Part shown: positions 26,049-29,715 of the stretch, piece after piece
Layout of the letters: every line of letters begins with the position of its first letter
Numbering within the stretch: position 1 is the first letter of the stretch
From: Candidatus Didemnitutus sp.
GTDB taxonomy: Bacteria > Verrucomicrobiota > Verrucomicrobiia > Opitutales > Opitutaceae
NCBI GenBank assembly: GCA_030681265.1
Contig: JAUXXD010000061.1
Coordinates: 1 to 54,782 of the forward strand
Direction of reading: 5' to 3'
DNA length: 54,782 nt
Made by a program: the position numbers and the translations under genes
Notes under the pieces: generated by a model
Told to the model about the DNA's origin: nothing
The model's input: the letters and a program-made list of their open reading frames with translations, nothing else
Databases searched by the model: none

Positions 26049-26151
26049 CGCACCTCGCTGGACCGCATCCTCTCCACCAACGGCTACAACGCCCTCGACC
26101 TGAAAGCGCACTTTGCCAGCGACACCGCGTCGCTCAAATTCACCGATTGAT
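26049..26151 (+). other. In-frame coding-like tail after the S9 peptidase stop
   Basis: Directly after the TGA of the peptidase the same frame reads RTSLDRILSTNGYNALDLKA and HFASDTASLKFTD before a second stop at 26149-26151, where it overlaps the TTG start of the cyclophilin. There is no start codon of its own. It might be the remnant of a third gene, lost by deletion. A possible relation to the N-terminal part of retropepsin-like proteins is only a guess. Confidence 0.35.
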
Positions 26152-26731
26152 CGCTCGATTTTTATCGTTGCTCGCGTTCCTGCTGCTCGCCCCCGCGTGG
26201 GCGGCCGAACCGGTTGTGGTTGTCCGCACGTCTCTCGGTGAATTCGCCATCGAACTCGACGCGACCCGCGCGCCGCGCACCGTCGCGAATTTTCTGCAAT
26301 ACGTGGAAGCCGGGCACTACACCGGCGGCATTTTCCATCGCACCGTGCGCCTCGAGCCGGACAACCAGCCGCACAACGACGTAAAAATCGAAGTCATCCA
26401 AGCGAGCGTGAATCCCGCCCAAGCCGGCGCCGACCTCGCGCCTGTTGCGCTCGAACGCACGCGCGACACCGGCCTGCTCCACCGCGACGGCACGATCTCG
26501 ATGGCGCGCGACGGACCCGACACCGCCACCAGCGATTTCTTTCTCTGCCTCGGCGACCAGCCCGAACTCGATTACGGCGGCCAGCGCAATCCCGACGGAC
26601 AAGGCTTCGCCGCGTTCGGCCGCGTCATCCGCGGCTTCGCGGTCGTGCGCGCGATCCATCAGTCGCCAGCAGACAAGCAAGTGCTAACCCCGCCAGTGCG
26701 AATTCTGAACATCACGCTTTTGTCGGAATAA
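26147..26731 (+). CDS. Exported peptidyl-prolyl cis-trans isomerase (cyclophilin)
   Basis: The 194-residue protein has a signal peptide (RFLSLLAFLLLAPAWA) and a cyclophilin domain: TSLGEFAIELDATRAPRTVA, NFLQYVEAGHYTGGIFHRTV and SDFFLCLGDQPELDYGG. It would speed proline isomerisation in folding of exported proteins. The active-site region FHR is present, but the loop after it (LEPDNQPHNDVKIEV) is a variant of the canonical IIPGFMIQGG. The start is TTG 26147, four bases into the stop of the preceding tail; no better codon is nearby. Confidence 0.88.
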   Translation: MIARFLSLLAFLLLAPAWAAEPVVVVRTSLGEFAIELDATRAPRTVANFLQYVEAGHYTGGIFHRTVRLEPDNQPHNDVKIEVIQASVNPAQAGADLAPVALERTRDTGLLHRDGTISMARDGPDTATSDFFLCLGDQPELDYGGQRNPDGQGFAAFGRVIRGFAVVRAIHQSPADKQVLTPPVRILNITLLSE

Positions 26732-26776: not shown

Positions 26777-27484
26777 TCACAAATCGCCCAGTTGCGGGCG
26801 GAGAACGATTTCTTCCACCACTGTTTTCCGGCTGAGCTGATAGACATTCAGCACCGCCCGCGCGATGTCCGTGGCGGGCATCATGCGTTCGGCAGTGAAG
26901 CCGGAATTCGCCCACGACGGCGTCCAGGTCGCGCCGGGGCAAACCGAGCACACGCGCACGCCCTTGTCCTTGAGCTCTGCGCGCATCACTTTCGTCAAAC
27001 CGGTAACCCCAAATTTTGCCGCGCAATAGGCCGCGCCATTGGGATACGCCTGCAGTCCCGCGATCGAGGACAGATTGAACACATCGCCAATCCCGCGTTG
27101 CACCATCCCGGGCACGAAGGCCTGTGAGACGAGAAACGTGCTGCGCAAACTGGCGGCAACGACGCGGTCAAACTGCGCGACGCTTGTCTCCAGCAACGGC
27201 GCGCCTTCGAACACACCCGCGTTGTTGATCAACACATCGACGCGTCCGAAGCGCTCGTGCACCGCGGCGGCCATCGCATTCACCGCCGCTTCATCGGTCA
27301 CATCGCAAACGAACACTGCCGCCTTCGCGCCGAGTTTTTCCACGCTGCGTGCGACCGCCTGCAATTTCTTTTCCGTGCGAGCCACGAGCGCCAAACGCAC
27401 GCCCGGAATTTCTTTCGCAAACATCCGCGCGATCGCCGCGCCGATTCCTTGCGATCCACCCGTGATGAGGACGACGGGTTTCAT
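26777..27484 (-). CDS. Short-chain dehydrogenase, sepiapterin-reductase-like
   Basis: The 235-residue NAD(P)-dependent SDR has TGGSQGIG (8-15), NNAG, and the catalytic Ser140, Tyr153 and Lys157 (YCAAK). The C-terminal stretch MMPATDIARAVLNVYQL and then TVVEEIVLRPQLGDL strongly recalls bacterial (Chlorobium-type) sepiapterin reductase, which ends in a near-identical VVEEIILRP motif. Together with the two pterin genes upstream on the same strand (folE2 ends 114 bases before it), this supports a role in making tetrahydrobiopterin-like pterins. That is an inference; a general SDR function is possible. ATG 27484 was preferred over TTG 27499. Confidence 0.8.
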   Translation of the reverse strand: MKPVVLITGGSQGIGAAIARMFAKEIPGVRLALVARTEKKLQAVARSVEKLGAKAAVFVCDVTDEAAVNAMAAAVHERFGRVDVLINNAGVFEGAPLLETSVAQFDRVVAASLRSTFLVSQAFVPGMVQRGIGDVFNLSSIAGLQAYPNGAAYCAAKFGVTGLTKVMRAELKDKGVRVCSVCPGATWTPSWANSGFTAERMMPATDIARAVLNVYQLSRKTVVEEIVLRPQLGDL

Positions 27485-27598
27485 GCGGGTAAGCTCCAAG
27501 TTCCAAATTCCAAACTCCAGAAACGCAGCAATCCACGGCTGATAGCGGCTGGGAAATTCACTGGGGCTTGTGAGTTTGGAGGTTGGTGCTTCGATCGC

Positions 27599-28579
27599 TC
27601 AGCAAAGCAGCGAACCGAAATCCATGAAGTTGGCCGCGAAACCACCGGGCACGCCTTTGCAAATCACGCTGACGGCGTCGTGCGAATGGAGTGATTCCAA
27701 GTGCGAGCACGCGATGCGGAAATCGGCGATGCGTTTGTCGCCGTCGAATTCCTTGTAGAGCAGACGCGCGGCGTCCTCGACAAATTTCAAGTAGGCGCCG
27801 TTGAGTTCGGCGAAAGCCTGTTCGTCTTCGCGCTTCACCATCACCTGCGTCTCGGTTTGGAGCGCGTTGAGGCAGTGTTGGTGGATGTCTTCGATCCAGA
27901 TTTTTTTGCCCTCGGCCTCTTCGATCGTGACGCGTGCCTTGCTGCGTTGCGAGTGCGGCACGGTGTAGGCGCCGCGCACATCGCGCGCGTGCTCCGACAA
28001 CTCCGCCGAGCACGGACAGGCGGACGAATAGACGAAATCGAAATGGATAAAGCGGCGGTAGCGGCCATCGCGCGTCATCACGCCTTCGAAGGCGACGTGG
28101 TAGAACTGGTAGCCTTCGAGACCGCTGCGCAGACTTTGGCGGAGCATCGGGTAGGAGAACGAAATCCGCAGGCGCGCGTCCTTGCTGTCCACGTTGCGCA
28201 GGTAGTTTTTGAGAATCTTGCCCATCCACTCGCCGGTGGTGACTTCGTCCTTGTGGTCGTAGAAGGTCCGCATGATGCGGCTCATGTTGATGCCCTTCAA
28301 CTCGGCTTCGAGCGACACCGTGCCGGTGACGCTGGTTTCGAGTGTGTGCTGTTTGCCGCCCTTGGTGCGGTATTTGAGCGGCAACTTGAAGTTGTGGATG
28401 CCGACCTGCTGGATCGGCACGTTCACGCCCTGCAAGGTGCTATGCGCCGCCTCCATCATGTCCGGCAACGACGCGCGGTAGGCGGGCGTAACCCGGAATT
28501 TTTGGTCGTAACTGCGCGACTGGCGCGGGGCGGCGCCGTCGTCAGAACGGTGGAGATACATCGGCTTCTTTTTGCTCAT
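27599..28579 (-). CDS. folE2: GTP cyclohydrolase FolE2 (type IB)
   Basis: This enzyme converts GTP to 7,8-dihydroneopterin triphosphate, the shared precursor of folate, queuosine and biopterin. The family hallmark [18 protein letters not shown] has the active-site cysteines C188 and C190. Other conserved stretches are [15 protein letters not shown] and [15 protein letters not shown]. At 326 aa it matches the FolE2 family (~260-330). Type IB enzymes can work with metals other than zinc and are often used under zinc limitation. Located 48 bases downstream of the PTPS gene and upstream of the SDR. Confidence 0.95.
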
Positions 28580-28627
28580 GTCGTTTTTTGCGGGGACGAT
28601 AACCGGAAGGTTGCGCGCAAGGCGCGT

Positions 28628-29101
28628 TCAGGTCGCGGTGGGACCAAAATATTCCGCGTAATTGCGGGGAGTTTCGTAAAGGCGCACGCGGTAGAGTTCG
28701 CCATGCGTGAGGCGCGGCGCGATCTCGTTCCAGAAGGCGATGACGAGGTTCTCGCTGGAAGGAATGATGCCGCGCAGGAAATCGACTTCGTCGTTGAGGT
28801 TGCGGTGGTCGCACTTGTCGACGATCGCTTCGTGCAGCAGGCGTTTCAGCGCGCCCAAATCCATGATGTAGCCCGTGTCGGCGTCGGGTTGGCCGCGAAT
28901 GGAGACTTCGAGGACGTAATTATGGCCGTGCCAATGCGGGTTGGTGCACAGGCCGTATTGCCGCTTATTCCACGCCTGACTCTTGCTCGGGTTGTGCAGG
29001 CGGTGGGCGGAGTTGAAATGCACTTGCCGCGTGATCGTAACGACGCCGCGCAACACGCGAGGAGCGCGGGCGGTTGGCTTGGCGGTGGATTTCTTGGGCA
29101 T
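28628..29101 (-). CDS. ptpS: 6-pyruvoyl-tetrahydropterin synthase / 6-carboxytetrahydropterin synthase family
   Basis: Zinc ligands are His33 (SAHRL), His58 and His60 (HWHGHNY), and Cys52 lies in GLCTNPHWHGHNY. This long-loop form with CxNPxxHGHNY looks like the eukaryotic PTPS rather than bacterial QueD, where the loop is short with a Cys just before RLHGH. PTPS converts dihydroneopterin triphosphate to 6-pyruvoyl-tetrahydropterin. A second conserved region is YIMDLGALKRLLHEAIVDKC and DHRNLN. The first ~20 residues are a basic, low-complexity extension. It heads a three-gene minus-strand group with folE2 and the SDR. QueD activity cannot be excluded. Confidence 0.85.
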   Translation of the reverse strand: MPKKSTAKPTARAPRVLRGVVTITRQVHFNSAHRLHNPSKSQAWNKRQYGLCTNPHWHGHNYVLEVSIRGQPDADTGYIMDLGALKRLLHEAIVDKCDHRNLNDEVDFLRGIIPSSENLVIAFWNEIAPRLTHGELYRVRLYETPRNYAEYFGPTAT

Positions 29102-29220
29102 GGAAGAGAGATAGGAAGCGAGTTTCGTTCGCGGGTCAACTTTCGCGGCATGTCGGCGCGGGCGGCGACAAAAAAGGCCCGCGGTGCGGCGGGCCGGTAA
29201 GGCAGGCGGGGGTCAGTTAC

Positions 29221-29715
29221 TCAGGCGGTGCGGCGGCGATAAACCGCCCCGGCCAAGCTGTCGGCTCCGCAGATCAACCCGCAGGTCGAGGGCTCGGGGA
29301 TCACGCTGTAACCTAGATCAGCCAAGATACCGAGTTCGCGCGGGCTCAAGGTGCGCACGCCCGGACCGGCCACGGTAGCAGCGTTCATCAGTAATTGATT
29401 CATGCCGGTGAAGGTCAGGTCGTCGGTGTGCCTGCCGCTGCGGTTGGTCAGGAAACGGTCGGAATAATACCAGACGTCAGGCGCGACCGAGGAATTGTTG
29501 TGCAGCCCTTGGCCGAGCGAGTTGGTGGCGGACTGCAGGGCATCGCGGCGCACCGCGCCGAACGTCGGGTCAGCGTAGCCCGTGCCGGTGCTGTTGACCA
29601 CGTCGGTATAAGTGAACGAGAAAACCAACTGCGCGCTGGCGGTCGTCGCCCACAACATGGCGGCCACACACATGACGACGAAGCAGGGGGAAGCGCATCG
29701 TTTGGGGGTAATCAT
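29221..29715 (-). CDS. Short PEP-CTERM protein, possibly an internally deleted metallopeptidase
   Basis: The 164-residue exported protein starts with a signal peptide (VVMCVAAMLWATTASAQ) and ends with a degenerate PEP-CTERM unit: IPEPSTCGLICGADSLAGAVYRRRTA-type sequence with a weak hydrophobic helix containing polar and cysteine residues. The phrase LSPRELGILADLGYSVIPEPS is what PEP-CTERM metalloproteases usually carry after their catalytic region, and the opening FSFTYTDVVNSTGTGYADP is what they carry before it; no HExxH motif is present between. An internal deletion is therefore likely (inference). Confidence 0.7.
   Translation of the reverse strand: MITPKRCASPCFVVMCVAAMLWATTASAQLVFSFTYTDVVNSTGTGYADPTFGAVRRDALQSATNSLGQGLHNNSSVAPDVWYYSDRFLTNRSGRHTDDLTFTGMNQLLMNAATVAGPGVRTLSPRELGILADLGYSVIPEPSTCGLICGADSLAGAVYRRRTA

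Follow-up and report, generated by a model that had tools for sequence, protein, structure and literature searches.

What would a bacterium of the family Opitutaceae do with three neighbouring genes whose products could, in sequence, carry GTP to tetrahydrobiopterin (BH4)? The question is raised by a 54,782-nucleotide stretch of DNA from Candidatus Didemnitutus sp. (assembly GCA_030681265.1, contig JAUXXD010000061.1; hereafter, the window), in which a first-pass annotation, made from the letters alone, had read three minus-strand genes, in order, as encoding a 6-pyruvoyltetrahydropterin synthase (PTPS) of eukaryotic type, the GTP cyclohydrolase FolE2 and a short-chain dehydrogenase/reductase (SDR) resembling the sepiapterin reductase of Chlorobium. 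All three open reading frames were found in that place, order and orientation, the peptides quoted from them (GLCTNPHWHGHNY and TVVEEIVLRPQLGDL) are both present in the translations, and their Pfam families (PF01242 for the PTPS, GCHY-1 PF02649 for FolE2, and adh_short PF00106, at E 1.7e-56, for the SDR) agree with the assignments. The answer favoured here, to which we assign a probability of roughly 0.87, is that these genes form a BH4 operon of an Opitutaceae bacterium, and that the cofactor would serve the phenylalanine 4-hydroxylase of the same genome. What the sequences show is homology, together with conserved residues, the order of the genes and the content of the genome; from these are inferred the co-transcription of the genes, the activities of their products, the isomer formed, the cofactor taken by the hydroxylase, and the folate auxotrophy discussed below. 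The elements of the locus on which the argument depends are as follows.

28628 to 29101, minus strand: PTPS-II, predicted 6-pyruvoyltetrahydropterin synthase, 157 amino acids (PF01242, E 1.6e-34; rat PTPS structure 1b66, E 5.8e-31; PTPS-II position in the tree).
28922 to 28948, minus strand: codons for Cys52 to His60 of the PTPS, its CxxxxxHGH signature (C52, H58, G59 and H60 invariant with rat and Caenorhabditis elegans PTPS).
27599 to 28579, minus strand: FolE2, predicted type IB GTP cyclohydrolase I, 326 amino acids (PF02649, E 3.1e-72; NF010200; structure 3d2o, E 1.3e-25).
26777 to 27484, minus strand: SDR, candidate sepiapterin or 6-pyruvoyltetrahydropterin reductase, 235 amino acids (nearest to 2bd0 by sequence and by predicted fold).
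26912 to 26914, minus strand: codon for Trp191 of the SDR, which corresponds in the alignment to Trp-196 of Chlorobium sepiapterin reductase (a residue shared by all 25 operon-type SDRs).
26780 to 26800, minus strand: codons for the C-terminal RPQLGDL of the SDR (aligned with RPTSGDI of 2bd0; P230, G233 and D234 invariant among 21 aligned SDRs).

The gaps between the genes are short (48 bp between PTPS and FolE2, and 114 bp between FolE2 and the SDR). The SDR reading frame, as called mechanically, begins at a TTG at position 27499; the ATG at 27484, listed above, matches the start of the Chlorobium enzyme in the alignment.

The first of the three proteins finds its best solved match in the rat enzyme, and entries labelled as QueD, the queuosine-pathway member of the same family, match only at about 1e-6. 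In an alignment with the rat and C. elegans enzymes and 11 relatives, residues H33, C52, H58, H60, D98, H99 and E143 are invariant; we take these to correspond to the residues that bind zinc and carry out catalysis in animal PTPS. The protein's motif, CTNPHWHGH, fits the pattern CxxxxxHGH that is described as the signature of PTPS-II, the BH4 type (PMC5041015). A search of 57 genomes, comprising the source genome and its relatives, returned 60 matches to PF01242 in all, of which 26 carry CxxxxxHGH (one in each of 26 genomes, termed cluster genomes below), 33 carry CxxxHGH and one carries neither. Locus L235 was read from its coordinates. A quick tree of 128 rows, some of them on long branches, placed the window PTPS with bacterial PTPS-II and two animal sequences, apart from 20 proteins of the second, QueD-like type (split support 83), several of which adjoin queC. 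PTPS-I (QueD) and PTPS-III, its paralogues within COG0720, belong to the same protein family and differ from it in motif and tree position: the operon PTPS displays neither the CxxxHGH motif nor the queC and queE neighbours of the former, and neither the ExxHGH motif nor the accompanying HPPK gene in the genome of the latter. The eukaryotic type first proposed for this protein thus stands, as does its separation from QueD, the genome's own queC and queE being located on another contig. A PTPS-family protein of genome G055 (locus L241), from the same set, reads SAEVRENLHGH, which fits neither CxxxxxHGH nor CxxxHGH, and occupies a very long branch.

FolE2 scored 284.4 bits against a cut-off of 215 for the NCBIfam equivalog NF010200, and is the only match of its own family in the source genome (220 contigs, 3.56 Mb in all; its completeness is given as 98.9% and its contamination as 2.32%). 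No match to FolE was obtained in that genome by a search that found FolE in 11 of 14 control genomes; across the 57 genomes, FolE is present in three (G015, G019 and G042) and FolE2 in 48.

The SDR is closest, among solved structures, to the sepiapterin reductase of Chlorobium tepidum (2bd0, E 7.6e-40; next match, 1.4e-36), and an AlphaFold2 model of it (mean pLDDT 95.5) returned the same structure as its top fold match (TM-score 0.94, rmsd 1.5, E 3.2e-27; next match, 4.3e-25). The C-terminal resemblance on which the first-pass annotation had relied was borne out by the alignment listed above. Two residues of the Chlorobium enzyme, Trp-196 and Phe-99, have been described as indispensable in substrate binding (PMC7520308). 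Across the 57 genomes, every one of the 25 operon-type SDRs has the equivalent of Trp-196 (24 of these SDRs come from cluster genomes, the window SDR among them, and one from G055), as do two of ten generic SDRs. In a tree from which SDRs shorter than 180 amino acids were left out, the operon SDRs and the Chlorobium enzyme were placed opposite the generic SDRs with a support of 82 (72 rows), which became 92 (64 rows) in a second version that also omitted eight long or distant rows. In its nearness to this reductase, by sequence and fold, and in its retention of Trp-196, the window SDR resembles a component of the pathway that leads to L-threo-tetrahydrobiopterin in C. tepidum.

Examination of the relatives showed that the arrangement recurs within the family. 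FolE2 adjoins PTPS-II in every one of the 26 genomes that carry PTPS-II, which argues that their pairing is not due to chance, and an orthologue of the SDR is found in 24 of these 26, versus one of the 31 others. These orthologues are 52-100% identical, versus at most 44% for other SDRs among the matches listed; in 23 of the 24 genomes they lie on the FolE2 contig within about 3.1 kb, and in the remaining one (G034) on a different contig, beside a fragment of FolE2. The nearest named relatives by PTPS, among the matches listed, are Opitutaceae and Opitutae records of the Verrucomicrobiota. The related genome G055, from another family of the order, has an SDR of 52% identity that shares a stretch of about 6 kb (C1:1260096-1266358; loci L060 and L099) with FolE2 and a carbinolamine dehydratase, without PTPS-II.

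Similar loci occur in other phyla. Among the best 80 of at least 586 confirmed named loci (many of them truncated at contig ends), the gene directly downstream of PTPS is FolE in 36 and FolE2 in 21, making 57 with either, and an SDR match, defined as any tblastn match on that strand in the next 3.5 kb downstream, follows in 38. Those of the PTPS-FolE-SDR kind (in Rhodothermales, Gemmatimonadota, Ignavibacteria and others, with a downstream SDR match in 25 of the 36) share the gene order of the operon in question, which differs from them in having FolE2, of the Opitutaceae family's own lineage, at the position of FolE. Because that position so often holds FolE elsewhere, FolE2 would appear to have replaced FolE in the operon. 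The FolE2-type loci belong to Opitutaceae/Verrucomicrobiota and to Balneolaceae/Rhodothermaceae. In a quick tree of 50 rows, covering 30 of the relatives' FolE2 proteins, the cluster copies grouped with FolE2 from three genomes of the same family that are without the cluster (support 99), and six Balneolaceae/Rhodothermaceae copies formed a separate group (support 99); this separation suggests that FolE2 probably came to lie beside PTPS-II twice. Acquisition of FolE2 from Balneolaceae along with the PTPS was considered and found to be unsupported, since the cluster FolE2 sits with FolE2 of its own family.

The first-pass remark that such a pathway seldom uses FolE2 holds only in broad terms, FolE being commoner elsewhere, and it does not describe the related genomes, in all 26 of which FolE2 stands beside PTPS-II, or the Balneolaceae/Rhodothermaceae loci. 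A study that surveyed the gene neighbourhoods of over 10,000 PTPS sequences reported FolE beside PTPS-II at low coverage (0.13) and 'FolE2' beside PTPS-IV (PMC5445326); as described there, FolE2 was taken to be PF00925 and not the PF02649 of this operon, and the pairing of FolE2 (PF02649) with PTPS-II is therefore untouched by that study. No report linking FolE2 to a bacterial BH4 operon was found among the open-licence papers listed; the legend to figure 3 of PMC5041015 lists FolE2, and that figure may already depict such a cluster.

Three further observations concern these gene sets. Ten of the PTPS-II proteins of the best 80 named loci, all from Bacteroidota (L197, L205, L206, L208, L215, L217, L219, L220, L227 and L234), carry both CxxxxxHGH and ExxHGH, as CANENWHGH or CANEHWHGH, and may be hybrids of the BH4 and folate types. 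Six Balneolaceae/Rhodothermaceae loci (L180, L181, L183, L184, L185 and L203) have PTPS and FolE2 adjacent with no SDR match nearby, and another reductase may complete the pathway there. Finally, a genome of the same genus as the source (G011, 74% complete, without a PTPS match) contains a fragmented FolE2 gene, interrupted by in-frame stop codons, that seems to be decaying (contig C9:9465-10215).

A candidate user for the cofactor, which the first-pass annotation had expected elsewhere in the genome in the form of a pterin-dependent hydroxylase, was indeed found. The single PF00351 protein of the source genome is a phenylalanine 4-monooxygenase (NF008877, 285.9 bits versus a cut-off of 247; solved match 3tk2, E 2.5e-55), and it adjoins a gene for 4-hydroxyphenylpyruvate dioxygenase (HPPD; TIGR01263, 392.3 bits versus 277), which is followed by an open reading frame resembling homogentisate dioxygenase, a weak assignment at 63.8 bits versus a cut-off of 510.75. 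The hydroxylase lies on a different contig from the window, and it is unlikely to be a contaminant, because genomes of the same genus carry a hydroxylase that is 82-86% identical. No HPPD match was found in the 1500-base flanks of the hydroxylase loci of eight relatives, so that its neighbourhood with HPPD is seen only in the source genome. A carbinolamine dehydratase (PF01329) is likewise encoded in the source genome, and in 22 of the 26 cluster genomes. The hydroxylase is present in nine of the 57 genomes, all nine of which have the cluster (Fisher p 3.5e-4, uncorrected for kinship). It also stands near the operon in two of the best 80 named loci: in a Verrucomicrobia record (L168), PTPS and SDR are followed by a convergent hydroxylase gene, with no FolE or FolE2 match in the locus, and in a Bacteroidetes record (L225) the order is hydroxylase-PTPS-FolE-SDR. 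The other kind of user that the first-pass annotation had named, a pterin glycosyltransferase, was not found: the Chlorobium-type pteridine glycosyltransferase (CtPGT) has no convincing homologue in the source genome, where the best partial match reached 26.9 bits, and such an enzyme was accordingly ruled out as the user there.

The pathway suggested by these assignments would begin with conversion of GTP to 7,8-dihydroneopterin triphosphate by FolE2, from which PTPS-II would form 6-pyruvoyltetrahydropterin; the SDR would then reduce both side-chain ketones with NADPH to yield tetrahydrobiopterin, possibly as the L-threo isomer found in Chlorobium. The coverage of the route from GTP to tetrahydrobiopterin that had been proposed for the three genes is in this way supported by homology, motif, residues and gene order. 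With this cofactor, phenylalanine 4-hydroxylase would convert phenylalanine to tyrosine and so feed, by way of the adjoining HPPD, towards homogentisate, and the pterin-4a-carbinolamine dehydratase would regenerate the cofactor. The scheme shares with BH4 synthesis in animals (GTP cyclohydrolase I, PTPS and sepiapterin reductase, with phenylalanine hydroxylase) its three predicted reactions, a PTPS of the animal type, and the presence in the genome of a hydroxylase and a carbinolamine dehydratase; unlike the animal system, it relies on FolE2 where FolE would act, its predicted sepiapterin reductase is of a bacterial type akin to that of Chlorobium, and its three genes are adjacent.

Several findings weigh against a BH4 operon serving the hydroxylase, or against individual parts of that proposal. 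The PTPS falls below the NCBIfam 6PTHBS cut-off (90.6 versus 125.5 bits), and the best NCBIfam model for the SDR (199.1 versus a cut-off of 234) yields no specific name. The position of Chlorobium Phe-99 is not conserved and is occupied by glycine in the window SDR, a difference from the C. tepidum system to which the lack of a CtPGT homologue in this genome adds another. When the Chlorobium enzyme was constrained to lie among the generic SDRs, the constrained tree was tolerated (p-AU 0.335), so that the link is statistically not firm; the separation from unrelated dehydrogenases, which had been suggested as a check, is favoured by the closeness of 2bd0 and by the tree supports of 82 and 92, but a generic placement was not rejected. 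Two cluster genomes, G013 and G019, have no SDR orthologue in the search of the 57 genomes. Eight of the nine genomes with a hydroxylase belong to one genus, and the association of hydroxylase with cluster therefore rests on few independent events; no hydroxylase was found in 17 of the 26 cluster genomes. Bacterial hydroxylases can, moreover, work with tetrahydropterins other than BH4, the Pseudomonas enzyme with tetrahydromonapterin being an example.

The points that concern the reductase leave room for an explanation in which a generic dehydrogenase, the SDR, lies there by chance, with the pathway stopping at 6-pyruvoyltetrahydropterin or being completed by another reductase. SDRs are abundant (14 matches in the source genome), the tree test accommodates it, and the Balneolaceae/Rhodothermaceae loci without an SDR match show the same PTPS-FolE2 pair; of the named loci credited above with a nearby SDR match, L221 and L233 have SDRs that group with generic ones, and that of L169 stands alone on a long branch. 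Nevertheless, the clear gap in identity between operon SDRs and all others among the matches listed, the confinement of 24 of the 25 operon-type SDRs to cluster genomes, and the fold match to 2bd0 make this explanation very unlikely.

Since 17 cluster genomes are without a hydroxylase, phenylalanine hydroxylation cannot be the sole use of the product, and an account can be proposed in which tetrahydrobiopterin is made but serves the family mainly as a glycosylated pterin, as a photoprotectant or with an enzyme not yet recognized, the hydroxylase being a late user in the source genus. Consistent with it, a CtPGT-like glycosyltransferase, at E 1e-29 or better, is encoded in nine of the 57 genomes, eight of which have the cluster. 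On the other hand, the source genome has the hydroxylase and not the glycosyltransferase, one genome (G026) has the glycosyltransferase without the cluster, the glycosyltransferase matches are only 32-40% identical and may act on other sugar substrates, and in 11 cluster genomes the hydroxylase and a strong glycosyltransferase match are both missing. We regard this account as less likely than not, and retain service to the phenylalanine hydroxylase as the favoured role in the source organism.

The same PTPS might instead, or in addition, act as QueD in queuosine synthesis, with the SDR unrelated to its function. In the source genome, QueC (170.9 versus 150.3 bits) and QueE (its best model, although below the cut-off) are encoded together on another contig, and a second PTPS-family gene (L032:6781-7365, on contig C193 of the source genome, G000) bears the motif CRFPHGH, of the CxxxHGH form, and is nearest to QueD, although under its cut-off (82.3 versus 89.25 bits). 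That gene lies away from queC and queE, beside hemN-like and sufS-like genes that were named by eye. Its presence, together with the PTPS-II motif retained by the operon protein and the absence, in all 26 genomes, of any full-length QueC match within 500 kb of PTPS-II on a shared contig, renders the QueD explanation unlikely, and QueD as the main role in the source genome was rejected on motif, tree and the second CxxxHGH protein. It was kept as possible for certain relatives: six genomes given as 96-100% complete (G004, G013, G019, G027, G029 and G030, with loci L266, L290, L291, L267, L288 and L289, respectively) encode QueC along with QueE in full length (at 65-81% identity to the source QueE), yet have PTPS-II as their sole PF01242 protein, so that PTPS-II may act there as QueD too. 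A further genome, G032 (a single contig, 100% complete), has no second PTPS, and has QueC with no QueE match.

Folate synthesis provides the remaining alternative, in which the PTPS substitutes for FolB (the PTPS-III role) and FolE2 performs its usual first step. FolB is indeed not found in the source genome (by a search that detected it in 10 of 14 control genomes), and FolE2 adjoins the PTPS; but HPPK, the next folate step, is also without a match there (versus 11 of 14 controls), the cluster genomes without HPPK are the same 17 as those without FolB, the other nine retain both, and the PTPS lacks the ExxHGH motif. A folate role for the PTPS is thus highly improbable, and was rejected on the joint absence of FolB and HPPK. 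That absence, of two enzymes that are neighbours elsewhere, instead suggests that de novo folate synthesis has apparently been lost (DHPS and later steps were not searched for), and that the source organism is a folate auxotroph, in which the only GTP cyclohydrolase I would serve BH4 and queuosine. With FolE2 as the sole such enzyme, and FolB and HPPK not found, the early pterin pool would flow to those two products and not to folate. FolB and HPPK are jointly absent from 28 of the 57 genomes, including the source; of these 28, the cluster is present in 17, all with FolE2, and four of the 17 are less than 90% complete. The joint absence in the source and 27 of 56 other genomes points to many Opitutales having lost the ability to make folate. 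A broader proposal would join these strands into an animal-like pterin economy, in which folate synthesis was lost and BH4 kept, FolE2 displaced FolE in the operon and serves only BH4 and queuosine, and PTPS-II performs the QueD step in the QueD-less relatives; taken as a whole, we consider it doubtful.

The surroundings of the operon were also surveyed. Upstream of the PTPS lies an unrelated reading frame (29221-29715, minus strand) that resembles a secreted protein, has no Pfam match and ends in a PEP-CTERM-like tail. Between it and the PTPS is one further element.

29176 to 29195, minus strand: terminator-like hairpin, a weak candidate identified by consensus match only.

Terminator-like sites (two found, versus 4.0 in shuffles) are fewer than in shuffled sequence, and no promoter-like site was found. 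Downstream of the SDR, a convergent reading frame (26147-26731) resembles a peptidyl-prolyl isomerase, as named by eye. The spacer between FolE2 and the SDR contains a repeat-like string, GAGTTTGGAATTTGGAACTTGGAGCTT, at 27491-27517 (minus strand), which occurs once in the window and whose core, among 273 loci, is present only in three that cover this same place. Elsewhere in the window are an exosortase gene (PF09721; 5600-7144, minus strand) and a gene for a WD40 repeat protein (PF00400; 47057-48079, plus strand); no Rfam family or tRNA was detected when the window was scanned for them.

The pathway described here is already known; what is newer is the FolE2 step within a compact operon shared across a family, accompanied by a hydroxylase in the same genome, and what appears to be a loss of folate synthesis. 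Labels on bacterial PTPS genes are frequently wrong, and in 2016 only some 50 of these genes had been predicted to act in BH4 synthesis (PMC5041015). Against that background, the predicted operon offers a compact and recognizable marker of BH4 synthesis in a bacterial family. In one genus the user is clear, for most of the remaining cluster genomes none is known, and bacterial use of BH4 thereby becomes a testable question. The presence of FolE2 at the position of FolE would represent a swap of the first step of the pathway and, if the PTPS of the QueD-less relatives does perform both jobs, a single enzyme would join the synthesis of BH4 to that of queuosine.

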